Shown piece by piece: positions 3,001 to 17,847 of a stretch of 64,000 nucleotides of DNA (positions are counted from its first letter, which is position 1; every line of letters starts with the position of its first letter). The notes under the pieces are model-generated. The model had not been told where the DNA came from. It was given only the letters and a program-made list of their open reading frames with translations, and did no database searches. The stretch comes from Owenweeksia sp. (lineage in GTDB: Bacteria > Bacteroidota > Bacteroidia > Flavobacteriales > Schleiferiaceae), in assembly GCA_028285465.1 (NCBI GenBank), contig JANQPD010000003.1:1-64000 (forward strand), written 5' to 3'. The position numbers and the translations under genes are program-made.

Positions 3001-4415
3001 ATCTTACAGATGCTACAGCTTATTGTATTTACCTGGTGGAAACCTGTCCTAATGGTATTTCGGATACTGCAGGGCCTTTATGTTTCAATACCTTGTGCCT
3101 GACCCAGGCCTTGCCCTATGTTGAGCGTTTCGATTTTTCGCTCAGGTGTTTTTCTGTTGTAGATAGCTCTGCAGACCCTGCTTCCTGGCAACATCTGCCG
3201 GCAGGTGGTTCTGCAAATGCCACGGGTGATCTGGATGGCACGGGTTATATGATCGTAGATAGCGATGAGGCAGGCAGTGTAGATATGGATGAGTATGCCT
3301 ATTCGCCCGTCATTGACGCGTCTGTAATCCCTACGGGAGAACAACTGTTTGTAGAATTCCACCAGTTTTTCAGGGTATATACTCTGGGTGGTTTCGAAAT
3401 TGGCGAAGTAGAAGTATGGGACGGCAACGCATGGAATTCTATCCTCTTGCAGGATCAATCGAGCGGTGACCAGGGAGCCTTTTCTGCTCCCGATACTGTC
3501 AAAATTGACATTACCCAGTATGCAAACGCAAGCCTTCAGGTACGTTTTCATTATTACGGTGCCAACTTCGATTGGTGGTGGGCAATTGACAATTTCAGTG
3601 TATACACCGAGGCACCAGGTTGTGCTGATCCGGGCCCTTTAACCTCTTCTACTCCCTTATGTGATGAGGTAACCTTTAATATAGCCTCCAATAGCAACAA
3701 CTCAATCATTGAGTTTGGCTCGGGAGGTTTTCCTGTGGGCACCGGAGCCGGAACAATCATTCCTGGCATTACGTCAACATCGCATACACTTGGAAACCTT
3801 CTTCCAGCCACAACGTACGATGCGTATATTGCGGATATCTGCGGATCTGATACCAGCAACTGGGTTGGACCTTTCACTTTTACCACAGATACCATTCCGG
3901 CAATCACCGCTGGTTTTAGTTTTGTACAAACCACCACTACGGCTAACAATGCTACGGTTGATTTTGATGCCAGCGCTTCGGTGGGCGCTACTTCTTATAC
4001 CTGGGATTTTGGCAATGGAAATGGGGGTATTGGTGTAAACGCTACTACTACCTATAGTGCCAACCAGGTGTACAATGTGAAGTTGATCGTAGAAGGACCT
4101 TGCGGAGCGATTGACAGCCTTACCCAGCCGGTAACCGTTACAGGCATAAGCCTGGAGGAAAACCGCTTTGATGCTACAGTTAGTTTGTATCCGAACCCCT
4201 CCAAGGGCATATTTTACCTGAATGTGGGCAATACCAGCAAGCTGTATAACGTGGAAATCACAGACCTGAGTGGCCGCGTGGTTTTCCGTGCCGCTGAACT
4301 CGAGCCCCGCATGGACCATATGATCCAATTGTCGGGTGAAGCAGCCGGTATGTATTTACTGAAAATTAAAGGAGAAGGTTTACGGATGAACCAACGGATC
4401 ATCCTCGATAAATAA
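3..4415 (+). CDS. Giant secreted adhesin, 3' part (cleaved-adhesin/FN3/PKD repeats, T9SS type A sorting domain)
   Basis: The frame is open to the window edge, so the gene starts upstream; the GTG at 39 in the ORF track is not a real start. The protein alternates jelly-roll modules of the cleaved-adhesin/choice-of-anchor J type (WLISPALSL, GGLDGWRLYIDS) with fibronectin type III modules (TEYEFYVRDSCG). Near the C-terminus is a PKD-like domain (YTWDFGNGNGG). The last ~80 residues are a T9SS type A sorting domain starting at SLYPNPSKGIFYLNV and ending in a basic tail. Proteins of this build are exported by the type IX system and anchored or released at the cell surface, usually for adhesion or polymer degradation. 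No catalytic domain is visible in this part. The first residues closely repeat a segment about 250 residues further on, so the array grew by internal duplication. A strong terminator follows. PorX, a T9SS regulator, lies near 44-45 kb. Confidence 0.93.
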   Translation, partial: TGSNPADFTDTIVPFASYSNTSYQEQLVDLSSYTGDVFIAWHVPSGGLDGWRLYIDSVSVEAIPACVEPMTLLLTYNSTDSVQIAWDSVTNAYNVEYGISGFAPNTGQGTTLAVTDTFANISGLSANTAYDFYVTSDCSGAGGGLSIPGGPLTVNTLCNALPVPFTETFNSTSLSEACWTVLNANADGDQWNLNYTSNTLNGDEVAAIYTDFNGGSNDDWLISPALSLTGNEQLAYYYRVQSSGEPNDFEVLVSTTGTNPADFTDTIVPLASYSNITYQRETVNMALYSGATYIAWHIPPGGLDGWRLYIDSVVVETLPPCPDPSQLTANNITAFQADLGWTNPNATSWNVEVVPAGFGQGSGTTVNTSNNPYTATNLSPNTCYDYYVQQDCGSNGTSQWVGPFTFCTPPTCPAPTNLGVDFGSLTSNGTDIFWTTGGASDWNVQYDTAGFSLGTGTQTSSTNDTLSLSSLTPGTEYEFYVRDSCGVGDVSSWAGPFSFSTPCLPFTAPYAQNFDGAAAQDPFGGISCWTITGPGANDIELNDSPDFGVDPAPSLPNSVELNDGNFSGGDTAILVSPRFSDLSSGNNRVRFKAAFENVVEELFVGVMSNPNIPSTMVILDTITTSTAGVYREYTVNLNNTSVIGTAEHVIFVHGTDIYEVYIDDFFYEALPTCLAPTALGVKSSITTTSAEVFWTTGGASNWNVQYGPIGFSLGTGTKVQSTNDTLLLSNLAPGTEYEFYVRDSCNAMDTSSWAGPVSFITAFNTNYLDDFTLSSPFAWSEADGRLSNNTVFTSSSSSWGQDNFGNTGSSSQRVNLFTDNQFEWLISPSIYLDPSISNLQVEFDVSISEFNSATQGYLDGTDDTLALVISTDNGVTWSSTDILWYTDVNDTIDVTGEHVVIPLSAYSGYVKFGFYGGSVINDSPDNDIYVDNFEVRTPRACNTPVLDSVTAVTTSSATVHWTDGDVNASSWDVILTTSGQTPGQGVVTTLSSSGSYSFSNLTDATAYCIYLVETCPNGISDTAGPLCFNTLCLTQALPYVERFDFSLRCFSVVDSSADPASWQHLPAGGSANATGDLDGTGYMIVDSDEAGSVDMDEYAYSPVIDASVIPTGEQLFVEFHQFFRVYTLGGFEIGEVEVWDGNAWNSILLQDQSSGDQGAFSAPDTVKIDITQYANASLQVRFHYYGANFDWWWAIDNFSVYTEAPGCADPGPLTSSTPLCDEVTFNIASNSNNSIIEFGSGGFPVGTGAGTIIPGITSTSHTLGNLLPATTYDAYIADICGSDTSNWVGPFTFTTDTIPAITAGFSFVQTTTTANNATVDFDASASVGATSYTWDFGNGNGGIGVNATTTYSANQVYNVKLIVEGPCGAIDSLTQPVTVTGISLEENRFDATVSLYPNPSKGIFYLNVGNTSKLYNVEITDLSGRVVFRAAELEPRMDHMIQLSGEAAGMYLLKIKGEGLRMNQRIILDK

Positions 4416-4598: not shown

Positions 4599-5651
4599 AT
4601 GGATCTTATTCAAAAAGCACAGCAGATTCCTATTGCATTTGTGGTAGGCAGAGGCAGGTCAGGCACTACCCTGTTGCAGAGCATTTTCGATGTTCACCCC
4701 CGGGTTTGTGCCCCGGCTGAATCCCGCTTTTTACTTTACCTGTACAGCAAATATGCACACGTTAAGCGCTGGAACGCAGAGCATGCACTGCATTTTGTGC
4801 AGGACCTGCTATCCGAACCTAAAATAAAGCTACTTTGGCATGTTAACCATGAAGCCCTGCTTCACGTACTCATGTCAAATCTTGATAAACTCGACTATGG
4901 CACCGTATGCAAACTGGTTTACCTCCACGATGCGTGCTGTGTTGAAAAAGGTAATGTGCAGCTTATTGTAGATAAGAACCCCGTATACTCCCTGTTCATT
5001 CCCCTATTGTTAAAAATTTTTCCCGAAGCAAAGTTCATCCACCTGGTCAGGGACCCCAGGGCAAATGTAGTCTCCCACAAGGGCATAGGGCTAAAATCAG
5101 GCGTCAAAGGGCTGGCGCTGAGTTGGCGTTTTTACAACCGACAAATAGAAAAAACCCGACCCGGGTCTTCGGGTCATTATCAATTGTTGCGTTATGAAGA
5201 CCTGGTAAATATGCCCGAAAAGCTCATCCGGCAGGCATCTGAGTTTTTAGACCTTCCTTACCTGGATGAAATGCAACACCCGCATAAATACGCACCTGCG
5301 CTCAGCGGGAAAAGCAAAAACAAGGTGAAAGAAAAAGCACTAAAAGGCATGCACCGTACGCTTATTGAACCTATTCACCCGGCCAGGATAAACAAATGGA
5401 AGTCCACTCTCAATGAAAAGCAAGTACGATGTGTAGAAGCTATTGCTCACTCCTATATGTTCAAATACCGGTATTCTTTTAGCTTCAAAACAAAGGTCCT
5501 TTTTTCTTGTGTATGCATTTGGGAAATGGCAGATCTGAAAAAAAGGATCTTACTCCTGAAATGTTATTACCTTATGCCTTTTTGGATAAGGAAAAAAAGA
5601 GCTGAAAGCTATGGCATAAAAAAGTTAAGAAAGCAGCTTTCGCTATCATGA
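4599..5651 (+). CDS. Sulfotransferase family protein (paralog 1 of 3)
   Basis: 350 residues, PAPS-dependent sulfotransferase of the Sulfotransfer_3 type. The 5'-phosphosulfate loop GRGRSGTTLLQ is at residues 17-27 and the 3'-phosphate motif RDPRANVVSH at 151-160. These enzymes move sulfate from PAPS to a hydroxyl or amine on a glycan, lipid or small molecule; the acceptor cannot be told from sequence. A basic, aromatic-rich tail of about 60 residues (PFWIRKKRAESYGIKKLRK) may bind the membrane. The gene starts about 130 bases after the adhesin terminator, and its stop overlaps the ATG of the next sulfotransferase (ATGA), so the two are translationally coupled. Confidence 0.88.
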   Translation: MDLIQKAQQIPIAFVVGRGRSGTTLLQSIFDVHPRVCAPAESRFLLYLYSKYAHVKRWNAEHALHFVQDLLSEPKIKLLWHVNHEALLHVLMSNLDKLDYGTVCKLVYLHDACCVEKGNVQLIVDKNPVYSLFIPLLLKIFPEAKFIHLVRDPRANVVSHKGIGLKSGVKGLALSWRFYNRQIEKTRPGSSGHYQLLRYEDLVNMPEKLIRQASEFLDLPYLDEMQHPHKYAPALSGKSKNKVKEKALKGMHRTLIEPIHPARINKWKSTLNEKQVRCVEAIAHSYMFKYRYSFSFKTKVLFSCVCIWEMADLKKRILLLKCYYLMPFWIRKKRAESYGIKKLRKQLSLS

Positions 5652-6721
5652 ATAACTTACCAGAAGTGTTTTCTCAACAAGACGTGCAGGAGCTTCCCTT
5701 TTTTTTCATAGTGGGCAGAGGAAGGTCTGGCACCACACTTTTGCAGATGATGCTGAATGCGCAGGGAAAAGTGACCATTCCCCTGGAGTCTAAATTTATC
5801 CTTCACCTGCAGGGTAAATATGAAGGCCGTTCCTTTACCAGCCCTTTGGAAATACGCCAGTTTTGCGAAGACCTCTATACCAACCGAAAGTTTAGGTTGT
5901 TTTGGAATGTTGAAAAGGAAGCGCTTATCACTTTTCTTAGTGGTCAGCTTCCCGTAAGGGGCTTTCCGGAAATCTGTAAGCTTATTTATGCCTACGCACC
6001 TACACCTTTTCCGTTTCACAACTTGTGCATGTTGGGGGATAAAAATCCTTTCTACTCCCTCTACATCCCTGCGCTGCTGCGTACATTTCCCGAAGCCAGG
6101 TTTGTGCATCTGATACGAGACGCCCGGGCTAATGTATGGTCTCACTACAAAGCTTTCGGCAAAAAAAACGCGGTTCATATGGCTTCACAGTGGAAATTGT
6201 ATAACCAAAGGGTAGAAGCCGCCAAACGAGAAAAACCAGACCGCTTTCACACCCTTAGGTACGAAGATCTTGTCAGCAATCCGGAAGAAACATTGCGTTC
6301 ACTTTGTACATTTCTCAACCTGGCTTACTCACCGGCTATGCTTGATTACCACCTCACTGCCGACAAATGGGCCAAAGAAAGCAGCTACCTCAATCTAAAG
6401 CATCATCTTGCCATTGGAAAAAAGGTAAGTCCGGCCAAAGCGGGAGGTTGGAAGGAGGGGTTGACCAGCTTTGAAGTAAGATGTATTGAGCATGTTGCTT
6501 ATGAAGAGCTGCTTCGGTATGGCTATCCGGTTGAAAAACAATCTTTAGCCAGCAGCGCCCTATTGTACTGGGCAATGGGGAAGATCAGGTTTCACATACA
6601 ACACCTGCTCATTCAAAAAGTCCTTTTCTCTATGCCTTTCTCACTCCGGAAGCACATCTTTAACGGACTTAGCCTCTTTTTTGATGCCCGGTATACAGGT
6701 TCAGGAACGGAACAGGCTTAA
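5648..6721 (+). CDS. Sulfotransferase family protein (paralog 2 of 3)
   Basis: 357 residues, clearly homologous to its neighbours: PAPS loop GRGRSGTTLLQMML near residues 23-36, conserved GDKNPFYSLYIPALL, and 3'-phosphate motif RDARANVWSH. It begins inside the stop codon of paralog 1 (ATGA overlap). Its 3' end overlaps the convergent hydroxylase-like gene by 21 bases. The C-terminal region is again hydrophobic and basic (MPFSLRKHIFNGLSLFF). Acceptor unknown; the adjoining acyl/glycosyl operon suggests a surface glycolipid or polysaccharide. Confidence 0.88.
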   Translation: MNNLPEVFSQQDVQELPFFFIVGRGRSGTTLLQMMLNAQGKVTIPLESKFILHLQGKYEGRSFTSPLEIRQFCEDLYTNRKFRLFWNVEKEALITFLSGQLPVRGFPEICKLIYAYAPTPFPFHNLCMLGDKNPFYSLYIPALLRTFPEARFVHLIRDARANVWSHYKAFGKKNAVHMASQWKLYNQRVEAAKREKPDRFHTLRYEDLVSNPEETLRSLCTFLNLAYSPAMLDYHLTADKWAKESSYLNLKHHLAIGKKVSPAKAGGWKEGLTSFEVRCIEHVAYEELLRYGYPVEKQSLASSALLYWAMGKIRFHIQHLLIQKVLFSMPFSLRKHIFNGLSLFFDARYTGSGTEQA

Positions 6722-7453
6722 CAAATAAACGGCTACATAAGCCACTATAAATACCGGGGCCAGGATAACTTTAGAAAGCATTCCCTTGCCCGCAAAAGCA
6801 CCGGCTACCTTCTGCGAAACCAGGGCCGCCAATACGGTGGCACACACCCTGCGTTTCTTTCTTATATACTCGGGTCTGATCACATCAAAAAGCAACACGA
6901 TTCTTCGTTTATCTGTGTGGTTCCAGGCACGGTGCTTTGAAGAATCGTTAAACAACAGCAATTCTCGCTCTTTCCAGGCACGCTGCTCCCCATCACACTC
7001 GAAACCGCATAAAGGTAAGCCTGCCGGAATAAGCAGTCCCAAATGCCCGCGTATGATCGCATTTGTATCGCCTCTGTGTTTTTTTATGTCTACCCCAGGT
7101 TCCAACATACTCACCGAATAAGAAACGATCCCCGGGATGCTTTCCATGACTTTTTGTGTAAGCGGGCACTCTTTTACATTCTCTTTGATCGGCCAACCCC
7201 ATATTTTAAAAGACAGCGCCCGCCAGTTTTTCTTGCCCTCCACCAGGGTCTTGTTGAAATACGGTTTAAGTTTATCCGGGTGTTCCTCTAAAAAAGAGGC
7301 AATTTCCTCTTGTATGGCACGGCTATTTTTTTTTACGCCCTCTGTCCAGGTGTGTTCTCCGGCATTTACATAGCCTATTTCCTTTGGAGGGCTCCCCCCG
7401 AAAGCAGAAAACCAAAGTTTCTCGGCATTTTTGTTCATGCCGGTAATGTACAA
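6701..7453 (-). CDS. Aspartyl/asparaginyl beta-hydroxylase-like dioxygenase
   Basis: 250 residues resembling the Asp_Arg_Hydrox (AspH/LpxO-like) Fe(II)/2-oxoglutarate dioxygenases. The likely iron-binding and co-substrate segments are KKHRGDTNAIIRGHLGLLIP and NDSSKHRAWNHTDKRRIVLL, spaced as in the family. A hydrophobic C-terminal stretch (VILAPVFIVAYVAVYLLSLF) probably anchors it to the membrane, as in LpxO, which hydroxylates lipid A acyl chains; other members hydroxylate Asp/Asn side chains. It sits on the minus strand between plus-strand sulfotransferases 2 and 3, so it is transcribed separately. Hydroxylation of a lipid or acyl group here is an inference from context. Confidence 0.75.
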   Translation of the reverse strand: MYITGMNKNAEKLWFSAFGGSPPKEIGYVNAGEHTWTEGVKKNSRAIQEEIASFLEEHPDKLKPYFNKTLVEGKKNWRALSFKIWGWPIKENVKECPLTQKVMESIPGIVSYSVSMLEPGVDIKKHRGDTNAIIRGHLGLLIPAGLPLCGFECDGEQRAWKERELLLFNDSSKHRAWNHTDKRRIVLLFDVIRPEYIRKKRRVCATVLAALVSQKVAGAFAGKGMLSKVILAPVFIVAYVAVYLLSLFRS

Positions 7454-7497
7454 AATGGTAGGATTTTGGTTAATCTTCTATCTTCACCGGTGAATAA

Positions 7498-8550
7498 ATG
7501 AATGGCATCGACAACACTTCATTGTTTTTTATCATCGGCAGGGAACGCTCCGGTACTACCCTTTTACAGTCTTTTTTAGCAGCCCATCCTGAAGTAAGTA
7601 TTCCTACGGAGGCCCCCTTTATTCCGTACCTGTATCGAAAATACCATGCGGATGCAAAGTGGAAGCAAGGCTTACCCCCCGACTTTATACCTGACCTGCT
7701 TACACATCCTTACTTTGTTTATTGGCGGATAAAGCCCGATGCTTTAAAAGAAGAGCTAAACAAATTAGAGGAATTGAATTTTGCCATAGCCTGTAAAAGT
7801 GTGCTCCTTCATCAAAACAAACAGGCCCGGCATGTGGGTGACAAAAACCCGCAATACACGCTGTATTTAAAAGAACTCATAAAACTTTACCCTGAGGCAA
7901 AATTTGTTTGGATTACCCGTGACCCCAGGGCCCAGGTTTATTCCATGCTTAAGGTGTCCTTTGAAAGAAAGATAGTGAGTGCTCTCGCCTACCGATGGCA
8001 ACAATACAATAAAAAGGCAGCAGCTTTTTCACATGCCCACCCCGCTAAAATGCTATGGATCAAATATGAAGACCTGGTAGCTGAACCCGTAGAAACCTTA
8101 CAGCGCACATGTACCTTCCTCGGGGTAGATTACCAGGAGTATATGCTAACGCAGCGCACCTCAACCCTTGAGGATCAACCGTTTTTTAAAACCCCGCAAC
8201 ACCTATCCTTAAACAAAGCACTTTCGTTGTCTCCGCTCAAGGCGTGGAAAGAACACCTCAACCGTAGTCAAATAGAATTGATCGAGGCCATTTGCCAACC
8301 GGTAATGGAAACATTGGGTTATGCGCCAGGTCACAGGCAATCTTCTTTTAACCGCCTTTCGCATAAGGCAGCGCATTTCCCGGGGATCCTGTATGGACAC
8401 TTTTACTTCGGTTTCATTAAGGGCCTGCAAGCCCTGCCCTTTTCGCTCAAACTCTTTCTACTTAAGAAATTGATTTATCCAAGGTTTACATTTTGGATAA
8501 ACGCAGCCCATGATGCAAAGAATAAAAAAGCGCATAAAGAGGGGAGCTAG
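7498..8550 (+). CDS. Sulfotransferase family protein (paralog 3 of 3)
   Basis: 350 residues. PAPS loop GRERSGTTLLQSF at about residues 14-26, conserved GDKNPQYTLYLKELI, and 3'-phosphate motif TRDPRAQVYSM. It has the same architecture as the two sulfotransferases upstream, including a C-terminal tail (ALPFSLKLFLLKKLIYPRF), so the three arose by duplication. It diverges from the hydroxylase-like gene (44-base gap) and converges with the GNAT gene of the acyl operon (24-base gap, no clear terminator). Acceptor unknown. Confidence 0.87.
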   Translation: MNGIDNTSLFFIIGRERSGTTLLQSFLAAHPEVSIPTEAPFIPYLYRKYHADAKWKQGLPPDFIPDLLTHPYFVYWRIKPDALKEELNKLEELNFAIACKSVLLHQNKQARHVGDKNPQYTLYLKELIKLYPEAKFVWITRDPRAQVYSMLKVSFERKIVSALAYRWQQYNKKAAAFSHAHPAKMLWIKYEDLVAEPVETLQRTCTFLGVDYQEYMLTQRTSTLEDQPFFKTPQHLSLNKALSLSPLKAWKEHLNRSQIELIEAICQPVMETLGYAPGHRQSSFNRLSHKAAHFPGILYGHFYFGFIKGLQALPFSLKLFLLKKLIYPRFTFWINAAHDAKNKKAHKEGS

Positions 8551-8574
8551 ACACTGGTTTTCCCACTACTCCCA

Positions 8575-9213
8575 CTAAAAGATCTCCAGAAAGGCTTTGG
8601 GGTCTTTCTCTGCCAAGGCATACCAATGTTTGGCCGAATCAGGTAGTTCAATATCGCTGGGTGCTAGTATTTTATCGTCTCCCGTTAGTATACCCATCGC
8701 CTTCCTGATCTTCTTCGTTTTTTCGAAGTATTGCGCTGCATTGAGCTCCATAACCACTTTATGTGCCCCAGGCAATCGCTCGCTTATCTCATAGCCTAAC
8801 ATTTGGTTGTATTGGATCACCCTGGTATTGTCGTCTCTTACGGTTGCTACGGTAGCCTTCAGCTTCAGAATGGAAAAAGTGAGGTCAGCCATACAAAGGG
8901 ATACTGCCACGGGCAGGTGCGTTTCCATTGCCTTTTTATCCCAAAGAAAGATCCCACCCTCAGCTTTCTCCTCATCCTTGGAACAGATCCGTCCATGCAC
9001 CAAGCCCACCTTCTCTTCTTTATGTTTAATGATGAAGTAAAAATTCCGGTTGTTGTTTATGGAATGGAACCAATCCAATTGCTCTTGTTTTGAAATGATC
9101 TTCTGAAAAAACATCTTTGAGCGGATATACTTGCTGTTCCGGTGCTTTCGCACTAGTTCAATATCCCCGAGTTTCAGACGATGCAGTTCAATGCCATACT
9201 TCCGGATGATCAT
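8575..9213 (-). CDS. GNAT family N-acetyltransferase
   Basis: 212 residues with the GNAT fold signature: an acceptor-side N-terminus, a central acyl-donor strand (KEEKVGLVHGRI) and the late motif KATVATVRDDNTRVIQYNQM followed by LGYEI. It most resembles GNATs of surface-sugar pathways that acylate amino sugars. It is the last gene of a six-gene minus-strand operon; its ATG overlaps the GT2 stop by 4 bases. With a dedicated ACP and two KASIII genes in the same operon, an acyl-ACP donor is plausible, but acetyl-CoA use cannot be excluded. The last ~45 residues are a separate C-terminal extension. Confidence 0.75.
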   Translation of the reverse strand: MIIRKYGIELHRLKLGDIELVRKHRNSKYIRSKMFFQKIISKQEQLDWFHSINNNRNFYFIIKHKEEKVGLVHGRICSKDEEKAEGGIFLWDKKAMETHLPVAVSLCMADLTFSILKLKATVATVRDDNTRVIQYNQMLGYEISERLPGAHKVVMELNAAQYFEKTKKIRKAMGILTGDDKILAPSDIELPDSAKHWYALAEKDPKAFLEIF

Positions 9214-10124
9214 AACCTGGATTCTGATATCGAATAGGTAGGCTTCTGGTTGAGAATGCCGAAAATATTACTCAAATACTGGCCCACCACGGCCAGGCTG
9301 ATAAGAATAAGGCTGGTCGAAAACATAATGGCCACGATCAAAGCGGTGAAGCCCGCTACATTCACATCGAAGAAAAGCTTTCTTACAGCAAAGTAAAGGG
9401 CTAAAACAAATGCGAGCGCAGACAGGCTACCCCCGAGAAATACCAAAAGCCGGAGAGGTACGGTGCTGTAGGTAAAAGAGAGTTGAAGCACCAGGCTAAT
9501 TATCTTAAAGCGCGAGTACCCACTTTTCCCATGTGCCCTCGGGCTGGTTTGTACAGCAACAAAACCGATCTTCTGTGTATACCAAAACAATATCTCATCT
9601 AAAAAAACAACCGGTTGTACATGACTTACCAGTTTCTTCTTTAACGCCTGGTTTAAGAGCCTCATCGAAGATCCTCTTCCTATGCCTTGATTAAGTGTCT
9701 TTGCCCCTAACTGCCACAGCTGTCCCCCGATTTTTTTAGCGGCATTCGTGTGCCGTGCGCCTTCTCCGTATACCAAGTCTGCCTTGCTCTTCTTCATCTC
9801 GCTTAGCAGTAGAGGAAGGTCTTCCGGGCTGTATTGCAGGTCATCGTCTATGGTAAATACATAGTCTCCCGAAGCGTGTTTAATGCCGCATAAAGTGGCA
9901 TTGTGTTGTCCGTAATTCTTAGCGAGGCGGATCAGCTTCACCGAACCGGGCGTATTTTCTTTTAGCTGCAACAACACCTCCCAGCTGTTGTCCTTCGAAA
10001 AATCATCCACATACAGGATCTCAAAAGGTTTTTCCAAAGCCCGGAAAGTTTCCAAAAGCTTAGTGTTGAGCGCAGCTAAACTCGCGCTGCTTTCGTAAAC
10101 CGGTATTACAATTGAATATTCCAT
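9210..10124 (-). CDS. Glycosyltransferase family 2, polyprenyl-phosphate type (DPM1/ArnC-like)
   Basis: 304 residues. The N-terminal GT-A domain starts SIVIPVYESSASLAALN and carries the metal-binding motif TIDDDLQYSPEDL near residue 95. Two C-terminal membrane spans follow (LRLLVFLGGSLSALAFVLAL; FTALIVAIMFSTSLILISLA). This layout is that of enzymes making polyprenyl-phosphate sugars such as ArnC or dolichyl-phosphate mannose synthase. The charged sugar would serve as donor on the periplasmic side, for example for GT-C enzymes like the TMTC-like pair at 13.6-17.4 kb. The gene overlaps both neighbours in the operon. Confidence 0.88.
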   Translation of the reverse strand: MEYSIVIPVYESSASLAALNTKLLETFRALEKPFEILYVDDFSKDNSWEVLLQLKENTPGSVKLIRLAKNYGQHNATLCGIKHASGDYVFTIDDDLQYSPEDLPLLLSEMKKSKADLVYGEGARHTNAAKKIGGQLWQLGAKTLNQGIGRGSSMRLLNQALKKKLVSHVQPVVFLDEILFWYTQKIGFVAVQTSPRAHGKSGYSRFKIISLVLQLSFTYSTVPLRLLVFLGGSLSALAFVLALYFAVRKLFFDVNVAGFTALIVAIMFSTSLILISLAVVGQYLSNIFGILNQKPTYSISESRL

Positions 10125-10870
10125 CAGTGTCCGGCACTTAGACCGCCATCCATAATAAGTTCGGTACCGGTTATCCAGCGGGAAGCGTCTGACAACAAAA
10201 ACACAATGGCATGGGCAATGTCTTCCGGCTCTCCAAAACCCAGCGGGTACATGTCTCCGTGTTTGTCCATCATTTCCTTTGAAACCGCTTGTTCAGCCCG
10301 GTCAAAAAGTGGGGTTTTCACCATGGCTGCCGCGATCACGTTTGACCGTATTTTCTTTTCCGCATACTCCAGGGCCAAGGCTTTACTGTAAGCATTTAAT
10401 GCGGCCTTGCTCCCGGCATATAAGGCACCTCCTTTATGCGCAAAAAAACTGGAAATAGAAGACATAAATACAACAGCTCCTCCATTGTTTATCTTTTTTG
10501 CTTTTAGCAAAAAGCTATTGAGCTTTATAGGGCCTTTGTAATTAAGGGCAAAAAGTTGCTCGATCTGTTTTTCTCCGATAAACTTTACCGGGAAAGCTTT
10601 GACCATGCCGGCACTATGTACCAATCCATCCAAAGCGGGGAGCTGCTCTACCAGATGGCGCAATTGATCCTCCTTTGTAACATCGGCCTGTATGATGCGA
10701 TGTTCTTCCCCGGATAAGGTGTCCTTTACATCTGCTAACTTCTGCTCACTCCTGGCACTGAGCACCAGTGTAGCGCCCATGTCAGCACAAAGGCGTGCCG
10801 TACAGGCACCGATGCCCGAAGAGGCCCCTGTAATCAAAATGGTTTTGCCTTGTAAGGTAAACGGATTCAT
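10124..10870 (-). CDS. SDR family oxidoreductase (FabG-like ketoreductase)
   Basis: 248 residues. Rossmann motif GASSGIG at 15-21, catalytic Ser in VVFMSSISSF, catalytic YAGSK (Tyr151, Lys155), and the C-terminal TGTELIMDGGLSAGH typical of classical SDRs. Its overlap with the KASIII gene upstream (ATGA) and its place after the ACP suggest that it reduces the 3-ketoacyl-ACP made by the KASIII enzymes to 3-hydroxyacyl-ACP. A nucleotide-sugar or other keto substrate is possible. Confidence 0.85.
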   Translation of the reverse strand: MNPFTLQGKTILITGASSGIGACTARLCADMGATLVLSARSEQKLADVKDTLSGEEHRIIQADVTKEDQLRHLVEQLPALDGLVHSAGMVKAFPVKFIGEKQIEQLFALNYKGPIKLNSFLLKAKKINNGGAVVFMSSISSFFAHKGGALYAGSKAALNAYSKALALEYAEKKIRSNVIAAAMVKTPLFDRAEQAVSKEMMDKHGDMYPLGFGEPEDIAHAIVFLLSDASRWITGTELIMDGGLSAGH

Positions 10871-11922
10871 ATCTCAAGTACTTCGGTGCATACTACTTTA
10901 TTGGTGCTGAGAGACATCACCCCCCATGACAAACCCACACCAAAACCCGAAAGTAATGCATGGCATTTTTTCGTACTTAATGCTTCTTTCAATTCTGTAA
11001 GCATGGTAAGCGGGATGGATGCAGAACTGGTATTGCCATAATCCCGTATAGAGTAAGGCACCTGTTCGGGTGAGAATTTCATTTTTTTCCGGATGGTCTC
11101 GTTCATCAGGAGATTGGCCTGGTGCATAAGCAAGTAGTCAAAATCTGCAGGGGTAAAGCCATGTTTATCCAAGAATGCCTGCATGCTTTTAGGTACTTTT
11201 CCTACCGAAAAGCTAAACACATCCAATCCGTTCAAGGCTACGTGTAGCCGACTCCGGCTAATGCCTTTGTCCAGTTCCCTTATGCGGAAAGACTCTTCCG
11301 ACACCAGATTCCTTATGCCTCCGTCAGGGATCATAATGGCTTCGTACCCGCTGCCATCACTATTGAGTTGAAAATGCATGGGTGGGGCTGTGGGTGTGTA
11401 TTCCAGGGCACATACACAACCCGCATCGCCAAATAAAGGATAGGTGCTTTTATCGGTTGATGCACAGGTGGCTGAGGAAACGTCTCCTACCATGAGTAAG
11501 CCCTTTTTCAGTTGTCCGCTTTGCATGAGGCTACTGATCACCGATAAACCATATACAAAGCCCGAACAGCCCAACCCAATGTCAAAAGTTATACACCCTT
11601 CGCTCAGCTTCAGGCGGTCTTGCAAAATGGTAGAAGTAGAAGGTAAATAATAGTCCCTTGATTGTGAAAGAAAGATCAATACTTCTACTTCTTCCTTTTC
11701 CCATTGGAGTTTGTTGAGGAGTGCTTCGGTTGCTTCAAAGCATAGGTCGGAAGTAGTAAGCCCTTTGGGAGCCACCCGCCTGGTTTCTACACCTGTAGTT
11801 TTAATAAACAGTTTTTTTTCTGCTTCCGAAAAATGCGGCAAGTCCCAATTCGACTCTGCTTGTTTGGGTACAGCCCCTGAAAGGCCAGCTACGTTTACGT
11901 GATGTGTGGAGAGCCATGCCAT
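10867..11922 (-). CDS. 3-oxoacyl-ACP synthase III family protein (KASIII copy A)
   Basis: 351 residues of the FabH/KASIII thiolase fold. Catalytic Cys119 lies in DIGLGCSGFVYGL, the active-site His in LMHQANLLMN, and the Asn in IRDYGNTSSASIPL; the triad is intact. Such enzymes condense an acyl-CoA with malonyl-ACP or transfer acyl groups. The ATG follows immediately after the stop codon of the ACP gene, so the partner is probably that ACP. It differs widely from KASIII copy B in the same operon, so the two may use different starters or form a pair. Housekeeping FabH is expected elsewhere in the genome. Confidence 0.88.
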   Translation of the reverse strand: MAWLSTHHVNVAGLSGAVPKQAESNWDLPHFSEAEKKLFIKTTGVETRRVAPKGLTTSDLCFEATEALLNKLQWEKEEVEVLIFLSQSRDYYLPSTSTILQDRLKLSEGCITFDIGLGCSGFVYGLSVISSLMQSGQLKKGLLMVGDVSSATCASTDKSTYPLFGDAGCVCALEYTPTAPPMHFQLNSDGSGYEAIMIPDGGIRNLVSEESFRIRELDKGISRSRLHVALNGLDVFSFSVGKVPKSMQAFLDKHGFTPADFDYLLMHQANLLMNETIRKKMKFSPEQVPYSIRDYGNTSSASIPLTMLTELKEALSTKKCHALLSGFGVGLSWGVMSLSTNKVVCTEVLEI

Positions 11923-12162
11923 TTACGATGCCTTTCTGCGTGCCTCTACAATGTGAAAAAGATCCTGAACGGTTTCAATCTGGTTTAAATCTTCTCCGGT
12001 AATCGCCACTTCGTATTCCGTTTCCATCAGGGCAATCAGGATCAGGGCGTACATAGAGCTCCACTCTTCAAGATCGCGGAAACTCGTTGTGGGTTCCAGG
12101 GTCCCTTTTTCAAGTTCCTCGAACTCCTCTTCTAATTTGTGTATAAAACTTTTTATCTCCAT
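11923..12162 (-). CDS. Acyl carrier protein, dedicated to the operon
   Basis: 79 residues, acidic helical ACP. The phosphopantetheine site usually reads DSL; here it reads WSSM (Ser36 as the probable attachment residue), preceded by FRDLEEW. Divergent ACPs of this sort occur in surface-glycan and secondary-metabolite loci rather than in the fab operon. It lies between two KASIII genes, with gaps of 3 and 0 bases. Replacement of the motif's Asp by Ser may tune which phosphopantetheinyl transferase or partner recognises it. Confidence 0.83.
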   Translation of the reverse strand: MEIKSFIHKLEEEFEELEKGTLEPTTSFRDLEEWSSMYALILIALMETEYEVAITGEDLNQIETVQDLFHIVEARRKAS

Positions 12163-12165
12163 AGT

Positions 12166-13209
12166 TTACTTAAAATACAGCATACAAGCTCCCCAAGATA
12201 ACCCAATTCCGAAACCCGCCAGCAATACTTTATTTCCTTTACTTATTCTCTGAGCCTGGTAAGCTCTGTACAAAGCGATCGGGATAGAAGAAGATACCGT
12301 ATTGCCCACATCGGTTATGTCAATGCAAAACTTTTCTTCCTTTACCTTGAGCCGCTTGCGCAAAAAGTTAAGCATTTGCCCGTTGGCCTGATGAGGCACA
12401 AAAAAATCTACTTCTTCTTTCTCAAGCCCTTCCTTTTCTAAAATATCCTCTACTAGCTGAGGCACCGTTCGCAAAGCAAATAAAAATATCTGAGGTGCAT
12501 TCATGCGCAACCTTCCCCCCAATAAGCCAGGATAGATGTGCTTGAATTGAAACAGCCACTCTGCATCCGCAGGATTCCGGGTACCGGAACGTTCTACCTT
12601 TAGTATATGTTCTCCTTTTCCGTCCGTACCAAAAACAGCCCCTCCAATGGAAGCGTTGATCCCTGACGGGATCTTTTTATCGCTGATCAGGGTAGCCGCT
12701 GCGCCATCACTGAATATGGCCCGGATATTCCAATCACTCGGATGGATGACTTTGGTGGGGGTATCTGATGTTATGAGCAGCACCTTTCGTGCCTGCCCCC
12801 CCATAATGAGCAATTTGGCCAGGTTAAGCCCATAGATGTAGCCGGTACATCCATGAAGCACGTCAATGGCGCCTATACTCTTTCTCAACCCCAGGTCGGC
12901 CTGCATCACACAGGCAGTGGTTGGGCCTTTGTATTCCAGCGCATCAGAAACAAAGATCAGGTAATCAATTTCCTCGCGGGCAATGTCCCATTCTTCAAAG
13001 AGCTTCAAGGCGGCCCTGTTTCCCAGGTCTTTTGAGCTATCGCTATGCGCTGAAACATACCTTTGCTTGATCCAGCAATAGTTATACACATCTTCTATCG
13101 ATGGACCATCAGGATCATCTTTCTCCTTAAAATGCAGATAATCTTCTATGATGGAGGCATTGCCGAGTTTTTCTTCCGGCAGGTAGTAACTGATCGCGTT
13201 TATATACAC
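12166..13209 (-). CDS. 3-oxoacyl-ACP synthase III family protein (KASIII copy B)
   Basis: 347 residues. The triad is present: Cys121 in DVLHGCTGYIYGLN, His in FVPHQANGQML, Asn in DVGNTVSSSIPIAL. It is the first gene of the minus-strand operon KASIII-ACP-KASIII-SDR-GT2-GNAT. Its N-terminal third contains an unusual insertion (FKEKDDPDGPSIEDVYNYCW) compared with housekeeping FabH, in the region that shapes the acyl pocket and dimer face, which suggests a specialised starter unit. The ATG at 13209 has no good promoter match upstream; the region upstream holds a decayed repeat fragment. Confidence 0.87.
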   Translation of the reverse strand: MYINAISYYLPEEKLGNASIIEDYLHFKEKDDPDGPSIEDVYNYCWIKQRYVSAHSDSSKDLGNRAALKLFEEWDIAREEIDYLIFVSDALEYKGPTTACVMQADLGLRKSIGAIDVLHGCTGYIYGLNLAKLLIMGGQARKVLLITSDTPTKVIHPSDWNIRAIFSDGAAATLISDKKIPSGINASIGGAVFGTDGKGEHILKVERSGTRNPADAEWLFQFKHIYPGLLGGRLRMNAPQIFLFALRTVPQLVEDILEKEGLEKEEVDFFVPHQANGQMLNFLRKRLKVKEEKFCIDITDVGNTVSSSIPIALYRAYQAQRISKGNKVLLAGFGIGLSWGACMLYFK

Positions 13210-13614: not shown

Positions 13615-15573
13615 TTAATTCGCCTTTGATCGGAGTTGGTCTAAATACGCTTCGGAAACCTGGGCGCCTTCTTGCTTTGCGCGCATAGCACTTTCCAAAG
13701 CACCTTTATAATCTCCAATACTATTCTTTACTACAGCTAAATTCAACCAGGTACCTGATGCATGACTATTGAGTTGCAAAGCTTGCGTGTAGGCTTTAAC
13801 GGAGCGGTCCAGTTCCCGGGTCTGGTAATAGACACTTCCAAGGTTATTAAATGCATCAAAGTAGCCAGGGTCAAGGTTAATGGCCTTTTCCAGATCGCGT
13901 TTGGCAGATTCAAGGTCAGAATTTAGCTGCGCTGTTCCCCGGTTGTACCAGGCCCTTGCATAATTGGGGTTCAATTCAATGGCTTTGTTAAAGTCTGATA
14001 TTGCTTCCTCTTGATTACCGGTTAGCAAGTATAAGTTACCCCGGTTGTTATAGGCCAGGTAAGAATCCGGATTGAGGGCAATTGCCGTATTAAAATCGCC
14101 CAATGCCTTTGCTCCATCATTTGCAGAAACGTAAAATTGCCCCCTGTTGATATAAGCTTGTTCATAATCTGGCCGCAACTGAATAGCCTTTGAATAGCTT
14201 TCTATGGCTTGCCGGGTATATCCTAACTGATGCTGTAAATCTCCCAGGTTAAAGTAATTGTCAAAACGATCAGGTGCCAACTGCACGGCCTTGTTAAAAT
14301 CAGCCAGGGCTTTAGAATTGTTGGAAACATCTTTGTAATAATTCCCCCGCCCTATATAGGCAAACCAATCCTGCGGATATTCTGAAATGGCCTTACTCCA
14401 TAGTGTTTCGCTATTCTGCCAAACCTTTAATTGTTGGCTTGAGAGATAAAAAAGGGGAAGCCCGATACTGATGCTTATCAGATAAAAAGTAGATTTCTTT
14501 TTAGGTATCTGAGGGACACGTTCAATCAAAACGATCAATGCCAAAAATAATCCTATATAACACAGGTAAGAATACCGTTCAGCAACTATGGCTCTTCCTA
14601 CGCTCACCAGCTGTAGCATCAATATCAGATTGAGCAAAAAGAACAATCCCGCAAACCCCAAAATCCTGTTCTTTCTCATCCCCAGCCATCCAAGGATCAA
14701 TAAGAATATCGCGCCTACTGCTGCCGGCATCAGAAAGCCCCATTCCAACATTTCAGTTTCCTGAGGGTAGGGATGCATAGGTGACAGGCCTGTGGGTAAA
14801 ATGCTCTTGACTATGTAGAAAAACAAACCGTAAAAGGCAAAGCTCAAACGTTGCGTTACTGAATAGGTTTCCAGGTCATTAACTGCAGCATTGCTTTGCA
14901 ATTGGATAGTAAGCATACCAATAAGCAAACTGCCTATAAACAATGGTATTAAAGGGAGGGCACTTTTGATTTTGATCTTCCCGAATGCTAAGTAATGCAA
15001 CAAAACCAAAGCTACCGGAAGGGTAATAGCTGCAGGCTTAGACAGAAGGGAAATTACCGCTGCACCAAATGTGAGCAATAGATGTTTTTTCTGTTTGGTT
15101 TTTAGATATTCGAAATATGCGATCAATGCACCCAGATAGAAAAAGGTATACACTAAATCCTTCCGGCTGGATATCCAGGCTACAGACTCTATGTGCATGG
15201 GGTGAATAGCAAAAAGAAGTGCTGCAAAAAAAGCTGCTCCCATTTTATTTGGAAGTATTCTTCTGGCAAAAAAGAAAACCAAAATGGAATTCAAAAGATG
15301 CCAAACAACATTATTAATGTGAAATATGCCAGGTGAGCCCCCTCCTAACCAATAATCTAACCTAAGGCTTAGCATAGTTAGCGGGTGAAAATTACCTGTA
15401 CCTGATCCATCTAAAAGAGAAGCAATAGTTGGATGGAGAATAAACGCGTTGTTCAGGACATATAGCTGATCGTCAAAGTTGACAAAGTCAAAATGGAAAG
15501 AAGGCCAATAGAGCCCCAGGGTAAGTACAGCCAGGCCCAACAACTCTAGGTAAGTCCTCTTATTCACATTCAT
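13615..15573 (-). CDS. TMTC-like multi-span TPR membrane protein (putative GT-C glycosyltransferase), copy B
   Basis: 652 residues from the ATG at 15573; the ORF track begins two codons earlier at TTG. The N-terminal ~400 residues hold about ten membrane spans with GT-C features: an acidic loop motif (FVNFDDQLYVLNN) after span 1, then NFHPLTMLSLRLDYWLGG and HPMHIESVAWISSRKD. These resemble TMTC-type O-mannosyltransferases and PMT-like enzymes using polyprenyl-linked sugars. About seven TPR units (residues ~415-645, e.g. NRGNLYLLTGNQEEAISDFN) face the periplasm and probably bind acceptor proteins. It directly follows its paralog with no gap, so the two are cotranscribed. Activity is inferred from architecture. 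Confidence 0.75.
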   Translation of the reverse strand: MNVNKRTYLELLGLAVLTLGLYWPSFHFDFVNFDDQLYVLNNAFILHPTIASLLDGSGTGNFHPLTMLSLRLDYWLGGGSPGIFHINNVVWHLLNSILVFFFARRILPNKMGAAFFAALLFAIHPMHIESVAWISSRKDLVYTFFYLGALIAYFEYLKTKQKKHLLLTFGAAVISLLSKPAAITLPVALVLLHYLAFGKIKIKSALPLIPLFIGSLLIGMLTIQLQSNAAVNDLETYSVTQRLSFAFYGLFFYIVKSILPTGLSPMHPYPQETEMLEWGFLMPAAVGAIFLLILGWLGMRKNRILGFAGLFFLLNLILMLQLVSVGRAIVAERYSYLCYIGLFLALIVLIERVPQIPKKKSTFYLISISIGLPLFYLSSQQLKVWQNSETLWSKAISEYPQDWFAYIGRGNYYKDVSNNSKALADFNKAVQLAPDRFDNYFNLGDLQHQLGYTRQAIESYSKAIQLRPDYEQAYINRGQFYVSANDGAKALGDFNTAIALNPDSYLAYNNRGNLYLLTGNQEEAISDFNKAIELNPNYARAWYNRGTAQLNSDLESAKRDLEKAINLDPGYFDAFNNLGSVYYQTRELDRSVKAYTQALQLNSHASGTWLNLAVVKNSIGDYKGALESAMRAKQEGAQVSEAYLDQLRSKAN

Positions 15574-15579
15574 GATCAA

Positions 15580-17421
15580 TTATTGAGCCGGCTGGTAATA
15601 ACCTGGATCAACCTTTACCCCTAGATTCCGGGCTCTGTCGAAATCTGCATTAGCCGAATTCTGATCCCCAAGCAAGCGAAAAGAAATTCCCCGGTTTAAG
15701 AAATACACTCCCTCGGCCTTTAAGCCAATTGCGGTATTGAGCACGGTAATGGATGAATCAAACTCACCCAAGTACTGATGCTCTATGGCAAGGGCGTTCC
15801 AAATAGCATGGTTACCAGGTTCCAGAAAAACGCATTTTTTAAAATCCTTTTTAGCCTGAACTCTTTGATTTAATTGCCCATATATGATCCCCCTGTTCAT
15901 ATAGGCATTTACAAACAGTGAATCCAAACTTATGGAGCGGTTTAAGTCACCAAGTGCTTCACGGTACTTTCCTTTTCTTCCATAGATAGCTCCCCGATTG
16001 GCAAATGCATTTTCATCAGTAGAATCCAACCGGATACAATTGTTATAATCGCTTAAAGCATACTCATCTTGTCCCATGTCGAAATAGATATTACCGCGGT
16101 TGCTGTAAAACATGGCCTCGTTAGGATTGAGTTTAATGGCTTGGTTTAAATCCCGGAGCGCTTTGGAAAACTGCTTTTCCAAGCGGTAATAAACACCTCT
16201 TCCGCCCCAAGACCCTGCCACTTCAGGAAACTTTTCAATAGCATCTGTCCACAGGGTTTCTCCGTTTTCCCAAACCTTTACCCTGTTGAAGGATGCTACA
16301 GCAAGGCCCAATAGAAGCAGGCCTGTGAGCATTCCTACTGACCGTTTATTGTTTTTTTGCTTAAAAAACAGGGCTTCTGAAACAAAGTAGACGGCAATGC
16401 TCAATCCTACATAAGCCAGGTAGGTATAGCGTTCTGCAATGATGGTGCTTCCTACAGAGACCAGTTGCACCACTAAAAGCAGTGATGATAGAAAAAACAG
16501 CATACCAAAAACAATACCTCTGTAAGATCTCCAGCGCCATAGACTAAATCCTGTAACTGCCAGAAAAATAACAGGGGATAAACTCACCCACAGATCAAAT
16601 GGTTTTGAAGGATAGGGATAAAAAGATGATAGGTGGATTGGCGCTACGAACTTGATCAAATATAGATTTAACGCGTAGCTGGCTAATTGCAAGCGCTCCA
16701 AAACCGTATAGGCCTCTACACTAACTGCTCCCACTTTAGTTTGGACAGATACAGTTGCTAATCCGATCAAAACGGATACGATAAAGAAAGGTATTTTTTC
16801 GACAATCAGTTTAATTGACATTTTCCTTGCCGTCAAATAGTCCACTAATAACAAATGGATGGGGAATATGACAGCCGTAGGCTTTGATAGGGTAGATAGG
16901 ATAAAGAACAGAAGGGTAACTGTCAGGTATCTTGATTTCTTCGCTGCACAAAAACTATGATAACTGATAAGGCCTAGAAAATAGAAACAGAAAAACAGGA
17001 CATCTTTTCGCGCGGATATCCAGGCAACTGATTCAACATGCATAGGGTGTAACGCAAAAACCCCTGCTACAAACAGAGGTAAAAATTCCTGCTTGGGCCA
17101 GGTTCTCCGCACCCACATATATAGCAGCAGGATATTGAAAATATGAAGTATCAAATTAAACAGATGATACCCAAATGCATTTTCTCCTCCAACAGCATAG
17201 TTCAATGCTAAGCTTAGCATCGTCAAAGGGTGATAGTTGGCCGTATTCCCCTCTGTAAAAAACTTTCCTAAGTTCTCCGCTGTTGGGTTCGTGACTTGTA
17301 AGTTATTGATAACATAGTAGTCATCATCCCAATTGACAAAATCAAAAGAAAGCGATTGTAAATACACCAGTAAGGTGACGATTAGAATACTGCCAACTAG
17401 AACTCTATGCTTTTGATTCAA
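15580..17421 (-). CDS. TMTC-like multi-span TPR membrane protein (putative GT-C glycosyltransferase), copy A
   Basis: 613 residues. The frame has no ATG before the conserved N-terminus, and an in-frame TGA lies a short way upstream, so TTG at 17421 is the best start; a -7 box TAGATTTG sits 20 bases upstream. Conserved features shared with copy B: FVNWDDDYYVINN, NYHPLTMLSLALNYAVGG, HPMHVESVAWISARKD, then VSVGSTIIAERYTYLAYVGL before the soluble part. About six TPR units follow (NRGNIYFDMGQDEYALSDYN). It probably transfers a lipid-linked sugar to periplasmic or secreted proteins; the polyprenyl-phosphate GT2 at 9.2-10.1 kb could supply such a donor. Confidence 0.75.
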   Translation of the reverse strand: MNQKHRVLVGSILIVTLLVYLQSLSFDFVNWDDDYYVINNLQVTNPTAENLGKFFTEGNTANYHPLTMLSLALNYAVGGENAFGYHLFNLILHIFNILLLYMWVRRTWPKQEFLPLFVAGVFALHPMHVESVAWISARKDVLFFCFYFLGLISYHSFCAAKKSRYLTVTLLFFILSTLSKPTAVIFPIHLLLVDYLTARKMSIKLIVEKIPFFIVSVLIGLATVSVQTKVGAVSVEAYTVLERLQLASYALNLYLIKFVAPIHLSSFYPYPSKPFDLWVSLSPVIFLAVTGFSLWRWRSYRGIVFGMLFFLSSLLLVVQLVSVGSTIIAERYTYLAYVGLSIAVYFVSEALFFKQKNNKRSVGMLTGLLLLGLAVASFNRVKVWENGETLWTDAIEKFPEVAGSWGGRGVYYRLEKQFSKALRDLNQAIKLNPNEAMFYSNRGNIYFDMGQDEYALSDYNNCIRLDSTDENAFANRGAIYGRKGKYREALGDLNRSISLDSLFVNAYMNRGIIYGQLNQRVQAKKDFKKCVFLEPGNHAIWNALAIEHQYLGEFDSSITVLNTAIGLKAEGVYFLNRGISFRLLGDQNSANADFDRARNLGVKVDPGYYQPAQ

Positions 17422-17598: not shown

Positions 17599-17606
17599 GC
17601 ATTACG

Positions 17607-17692
17607 TGCCCCAGGCGGGACTTGAACCCGCACGGACATTGCTGTCCACGGGATTTTAAGTCCCGCGTGTCTACCAATTCCACCACCAGGGC
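17607..17692 (-). tRNA. tRNA-Leu (anticodon TAA)
   Basis: 86 nt class II tRNA. Minus-strand sequence begins GCCCTGGTGGTGGAATTGGT, the anticodon loop reads CTTAAAA (anticodon TAA), there is a long variable arm (TGGACAGCAATGTCCG), and the T loop is GGTTCAAGTCC. Acceptor stem pairs GCCCTGG with CTGGGGC with two G-U pairs; discriminator A. CCA is not encoded. Confidence 0.95.
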
Positions 17693-17741
17693 GTAGTATC
17701 CGATGCTCTTAGATCTGTTCAGAAAAGCAAAGGCGTAAACC

Positions 17742-17768
17742 AAAAGCCCCTCATCAGGAGGGGCTTTT
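17742..17768 (-). terminator. Terminator downstream of tRNA-Gly
   Basis: An 11-bp perfect stem AAAAGCCCCTC / GAGGGGCTTTT with a 5-base loop lies 6 bases after the tRNA-Gly 3' end on the minus strand. It separates the two tRNA genes into distinct transcripts. Confidence 0.85.
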
Positions 17769-17774
17769 ACTTCG

Positions 17775-17847
<73 letters not shown>

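Follow-up and report, generated by a model that had tools for sequence, protein, structure and literature searches.

The TMTC1-4 proteins of eukaryotes (CAZy family GT105) are cadherin O-mannosyltransferases in which an 11-TM GT-C half is followed by lumenal TPRs. In animals, they transfer single mannoses to cadherins, on Ig-like domains, with specificity thought to come from the TPRs (PMC11292533). The TMTC layout consists of 11 TM segments with motifs in particular loops, and a Glu in motif M4 and an Asp in motif M5 have been proposed as metal ligands (PMC7801869). Full-length bacterial homologues, in which a sugar transferase is likewise followed by TPRs, were noted in the same paper as uncharacterised (e.g., in Deltaproteobacteria DG_8), with one prokaryotic example given without its context. 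Although bacterial TMTC-like proteins are widespread, no substrate for any of them was found in the literature searched. The PMT/POMT protein O-mannosyltransferases, which act as dimers, share the Pfam PMT_2 domain and an acidic motif in the loop EL1 but carry a MIR domain instead of TPRs. In the Pgf system of Streptococcus mutans (PgfS, PgfM1, PgfM2, and PgfE), two related membrane proteins, one of them of the PMT_2 type, are both needed for adhesin modification, and the adhesin gene cnm adjoins the cluster; no TPRs are described in this system, and the donor synthase PgfS is encoded inside the operon (PMC5856776).

The window analysed here, a stretch of 64,000 nucleotides from Owenweeksia sp. 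(Flavobacteriales), encodes two related membrane proteins that resemble TMTC1-4 in having an 11-TM GT-C half followed by periplasmic TPRs and in the EL1 DD, RxD, conserved Lys, and ERxxY motifs. As with the PMTs, they match PMT_2 and have an acidic EL1 motif. Unlike the single prokaryotic example described earlier, they represent a distinct subfamily with tandem arrays and an adhesin neighborhood and, unlike the Pgf proteins, they have TPRs and no donor synthase in their own operon. The resemblance to TMTC1-4 could extend to the acceptors, the candidates for the pair being repeat adhesins with Ig-like folds.

The gene pair, its motifs, and its family

The first gene of the pair, P0002 (15580..17421, minus strand), has a TTG start and codes for a GT-C (11 TM) plus TPR protein of 613 aa; the second, P0001 (13615..15573, minus strand), codes for one of 652 aa. 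Both are complete ORFs, at the same coordinates as in the preliminary description of this DNA, and only 6 bp separate the stop codon of P0002 from the likely ATG of P0001 (15573), so the two are probably expressed as one transcript. Upstream of the pair are genes for tRNA-Leu and tRNA-Gly, which directly precede it at 17606-17847, and mutS. The two proteins are 35% identical over their full length (E value of 2e-108). Their orthologues in the closest named relative, an Owenweeksia sp. bin (G017, contig L022), show 82.5% (P0001) and 86.6% (P0002) identity, with dN/dS values of about 0.11 and 0.075, respectively, that are low in both halves of the proteins. Such constraint, along with the motifs kept in both proteins and the confident models (see below), indicates at the sequence level that both copies are maintained and that neither resembles a dead enzyme; the dN/dS values and motifs rule out a dead or decaying copy.

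PMT_2 matches P0001 and P0002 with E values of 7.7e-7 and 2e-7, above the gathering score, and several Pfam TPR models match the C-terminal halves. Based on these matches and the structural models, the TPR arrays cover approximately residues 388-652 of P0001 (13618..14412, minus strand) and residues 387-613 of P0002 (15583..16263, minus strand). The positive-inside loop charges alternate cleanly across the 11 TM segments, with the N-terminus inside. From this pattern, the predicted periplasmic side carries the TPRs, the conserved Lys, and the loops with the acidic, HPMH, and ERxxY motifs. The AlphaFold models have pLDDT values of 89.9 (P0001) and 92.8 (P0002) and a pTM of 0.88 each. When these models were compared by Foldseek, the 50 matches listed were all TPR or helical-repeat chains, with no solved GT-C enzyme among them, so the GT-C fold of the pair was not confirmed by that route; a profile search of PDB sequences gave no match of the pair to a solved GT-C enzyme, and searches of solved structures with GT-C-only queries returned nothing useful.

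The motifs of the pair fall in the same loops as in the TMTC layout (PMC7801869). The acidic pair (motif M1) of EL1, the first periplasmic loop, corresponds to D34-D35 of P0001 (15469..15474, minus strand) and D32-D33 of P0002 (17323..17328, minus strand; coordinates computed from the translations). Its first Asp is found in 100% of 137 family members, and the second residue is Asp in 95-99%. The HPMHxESVAWIS loop, which is nearly universal across the pair's subfamily, reads HPMHIESVAWIS in P0001 (15169..15204, minus strand) and HPMHVESVAWIS in P0002 (17014..17049, minus strand). Both proteins also contain RKD as the RxD motif (M3) and the ERxxY motif (M7; ERYSY / ERYTY). Across the 137 proteins, which belong to two subfamilies, the first EL1 Asp, an EL1 Pro, K179, and P260 are invariant, and the HPxHxE, RxD, and ERxxY positions are strongly conserved. 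The invariant columns among 55 members of the pair's own subfamily include D34, N61, P64, T66, H92, H124, P125, H127, E129, S130, W133, K138, D139, K179, Q226, Q321, R333, and Y334.

The same genome encodes five further GT-C/TPR proteins that are of the TMTC type, with HPxHTEVVAN-type, KE, and DY motifs. The pair differs from this paralogue subfamily, and from TMTC1-4, in three motifs. M2, which ends in YRP in TMTCs and in the paralogue subfamily, is NFHP / NYHP in the pair, with the Pro kept and His in place of Arg. In M4, the Lys, which is the phosphate-binding residue of this motif in TMTCs, is invariant, whereas the Glu, present in 91% of the TMTC-type paralogue subfamily and not among the residues listed for the pair's subfamily, is replaced by Pro. 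The M5 (DW) Asp of EL4, present in 82% of the paralogue subfamily, is replaced by Met/Phe. The Pfam model TMTC_DUF1736 (PF08409) has no match to P0001 or P0002 even at an E value of 10; it matches 3 of the 5 paralogues (those at L018, L020, and L021), one of them above its cut-off, and 15 of the 63 members of a mixed set. The two subfamilies are clearly homologous (hhalign probability of 99.9%). Since the pair lacks both the two acids proposed as metal ligands and the TMTC_DUF1736 match, its sequences assign it to a sister subfamily of the TMTC-type proteins rather than to the TMTC family itself, and this subfamily could serve as a test of whether those residues are needed.

The designation of the pair as TMTC-like in the preliminary description is thus broadly justified by the architecture, the homology, and the retained motifs and does not extend to the metal-ligand acids or the TMTC_DUF1736 match. 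The other features listed there are all recovered: a tandem pair of GT-C/TPR genes (two adjacent complete ORFs, related and strongly constrained), GT-C-like membrane spans (the PMT_2 matches above the cut-off, the 11-TM charge pattern, and the catalytic-type motifs), an early acidic motif, a shared HPMHxESVAWIS loop, and periplasmic TPR arrays (the Pfam matches and the positive-inside topology).

Adhesin genes beside the pair and its paralogues

In G017, the pair is followed by genes for a 226-aa protein that matches no Pfam model, a regulator-like protein with TPR and HTH matches, and, 3 kb downstream of the pair, a 1156-aa HYR/SprB-repeat adhesin. In the window, the region directly downstream of P0001 (13432..13608, minus strand) retains, as a remnant interrupted by stop codons, the 3' end of a former HYR/SprB-repeat adhesin gene. 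It matches the C-terminus of the 1156-aa protein (46% over 63 aa, E value of 2e-8), the only match among all proteins compared, many other SprB proteins included; six other gaps of the window, searched in the same way, gave no match. This match to a syntenic gene suggests that the ancestral neighbor of the pair was likely an adhesin that has since decayed in this genome. With the syntenic adhesin broken and the pair kept without it, the substrate here may be one of the remaining SprB/HYR proteins encoded on C24, C57, or C92, or something else. At a distance of about 9 kb from the pair, the window also encodes a 1458-aa T9SS-tailed protein with fn3, cleaved-adhesin, and PKD domains (39-4415).

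Adhesin genes are found near the TMTC-type paralogues as well. On C24, the genes for a 2237-aa HYR/SprB protein carrying a type IX secretion tail and for an OmpA-like protein precede the paralogue, a gene order also seen in G017, and the paralogue on C57 is 0.9 kb from SprB proteins, one of which also matches cadherin-like and Ig domains. Elsewhere, three consecutive TMTC-type genes, a GT4 gene, and a PgfS-like GT2 gene adjoin the gene for an SprB protein with 17 scored repeats (G049), another SprB gene ends 46 bp from a TMTC-type gene (G112), an SprB/PKD CHU_C protein is encoded 2 kb from one (G092), and a CHU_C protein with 14 Ig_7 domains is encoded 108 bp downstream of one (G038, a case left out of the SprB counts). 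With orthologues collapsed, an SprB gene is found no more than 3 kb away at 5 of the 13 TMTC-type loci, compared to the expected 0.36 (p of 1e-5), in a set that had in part itself suggested the adhesin idea and with SprB gene spans estimated by hand among the matches listed; restricted to the genomes that were drawn separately, the count is 2 of 7 loci (p of 0.02). In the pair's own subfamily, an SprB-type gene was detected in 5 of 79 loci, always within two genes (Fisher p of 0.02), several of these loci being related arrays that also carry TMTC-type genes. The remaining loci (about 74 of 79) had no SprB-type gene in the stretch examined, and the adhesin link is therefore not a rule for the whole subfamily. 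In several Bacteroidales bins, GT-C/TPR arrays are immediately preceded by genes for a large SprB-repeat protein and a response regulator (L043:1-3324, L051:1-5859, L082:1-5585, and L096:1-5822).

Candidate acceptors and sugar donors

The motifs, topology, models, and constraint, combined with the adhesin remnant and the parallels to TMTCs and to the S. mutans system, are best explained if P0001 and P0002 are periplasmic O-glycosyltransferases of adhesins, an interpretation to which we assign a probability of approximately 0.5. They would be inner-membrane GT-C glycosyltransferases, related to TMTC and PMT. In this model, a polyprenyl-phosphate sugar would be bound by the membrane half at its periplasmic face, with the EL1 aspartate as the putative catalytic base, exported proteins would be recruited by the periplasmic TPRs, and Ser/Thr would receive the sugar, probably one hexose (mannose by analogy). 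We infer each of these elements: catalysis, the sugar and its donor, the acceptor sites, and the cooperation between P0001 and P0002. Judging from the sequences, protein O-glycosylation by the pair is plausible; adhesins are the acceptors in the leading hypothesis because animal TMTCs modify Ig-like cadherin domains. A broader and more tentative proposal is that of a bacterial counterpart of the animal TMTC-cadherin axis, in which TPR-bearing GT-Cs would O-glycosylate the Ig-like/HYR/SprB repeats of type IX-secreted adhesins, with the pair's subfamily working without the TMTC metal-binding acids. If these proteins do act on SprB/HYR/Ig-like adhesins, the TMTC-like family would gain a concrete class of acceptors and glycosylation would be tied to surface adhesion in Bacteroidota. 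This would also suggest that TPR-bearing GT-Cs add sugars to Ig-like adhesins outside animals too, and the recognition of folded domains by TMTCs could then be studied in simple bacterial systems.

The PMT_2 family also covers lipid-modifying GT-Cs, and a match to it does not by itself choose the acceptor. The pair could accordingly have a lipid or a surface polysaccharide as its acceptor, as in the ArnT-like use of GT-Cs, with the TPRs assembling an envelope complex, and the frequent lack of an adhesin gene in the loci of this subfamily would agree with such a role. However, a GT-C joined to a long periplasmic TPR array is the protein-modifying architecture of the TMTCs, and an adhesin gene adjoins the pair in G017 and persists as a remnant in the window, so we view a lipid or polysaccharide acceptor as rather doubtful. 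Less likely still, the pair may target other substrates, such as secreted proteins in general, and be found near adhesin genes only as a result of sharing accessory islands with them. The pair and the TMTC-type genes do co-occur in the same few genomes, and the pair is constrained even though its syntenic adhesin has decayed, but close or operon-like placement recurs in unrelated genomes, with the HYR/SprB-OmpA-TMTC order found in two genera and the Ig_7 protein gene of G038 located immediately downstream of a TMTC-type gene.

Adhesin O-glycosylation by the pair would require a sugar donor, and the preliminary description suggested that one could be supplied by a GT2 about 3.5 kb away. An ArnC/PgfS-like GT2 is indeed encoded at that distance (9210-10124), in a FabH-FabH-SDR-GT2-acetyltransferase cluster. 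Its type is appropriate for a protein glycosylation unit fed by this GT2 and its FabH/SDR/PseH-like operon, and polyprenyl-phosphate-type GT2s are encoded directly beside relatives of the pair in L046, L051, L096, L100, L109, and L120, although such direct adjacency is not significantly enriched overall (p of 0.13). Nevertheless, the pair occurs in only one close relative, G017, and that genome has no match to this GT2 at an E value of 1e-40 and no FabH/SDR/GT2 cluster beside the pair; in the window, the adhesin remnant intervenes between the GT2 gene and the pair, which belong to different operons. We therefore reject this GT2 as the partner of the pair and regard the corresponding glycosylation unit as very unlikely. 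A DPM-like GT2, by comparison, is encoded in 30 of the 31 genomes tested, including this one (C69:373-1074), and would be the better and simpler candidate for the donor synthase. The part of the window that contains the ArnC/PgfS-like GT2 gene (4599-13209) also codes for three sulfotransferases, an OlsC/LpxO-like Asp/Arg hydroxylase, two FabH-like synthases, an SDR, and a PseH-like acetyltransferase and could represent a gene cluster for lipids or sulfated glycolipids.

Distribution and tandem arrays

At an E value of 1e-60, relatives of P0001 were found in 4 of the 60 genomes searched, its own included, and 3 of these 4 genomes also carry TMTC-type genes. The preliminary description had linked the pair to the unsettled enzymes of O-glycosylation in Bacteroidota, and the oligosaccharyltransferase of their general system is still undiscovered (PMC12871550), but that system has been described as being conserved throughout the phylum, and with so patchy a distribution the pair is extremely unlikely to be its missing enzyme. 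A scan of named genomes yielded at least 550 confirmed relatives, and the best 80 of these come mostly from Bacteroidota metagenome bins, with some from Eisenbacteria.

Of the 83 loci examined, 25 are tandem arrays in which two to five such genes follow one another. In the phylogenetic tree, the pairs of the window and of G017 together make up a single four-member clade (support of 0.93), within which each gene groups with its orthologue. The two genes had therefore duplicated before these genera diverged, and a recent duplication is rejected. In the five-gene GT-C/TPR arrays (L051:5867-15490, L083:3-9920, and L096:5830-15503), some copies are on the opposite strand, which suggests repeated local duplication and inversion. 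A different arrangement is found near a TMTC-type gene on C92, where a TPR array is fused to an arginine-methyltransferase-like domain (L020:6972-8729).
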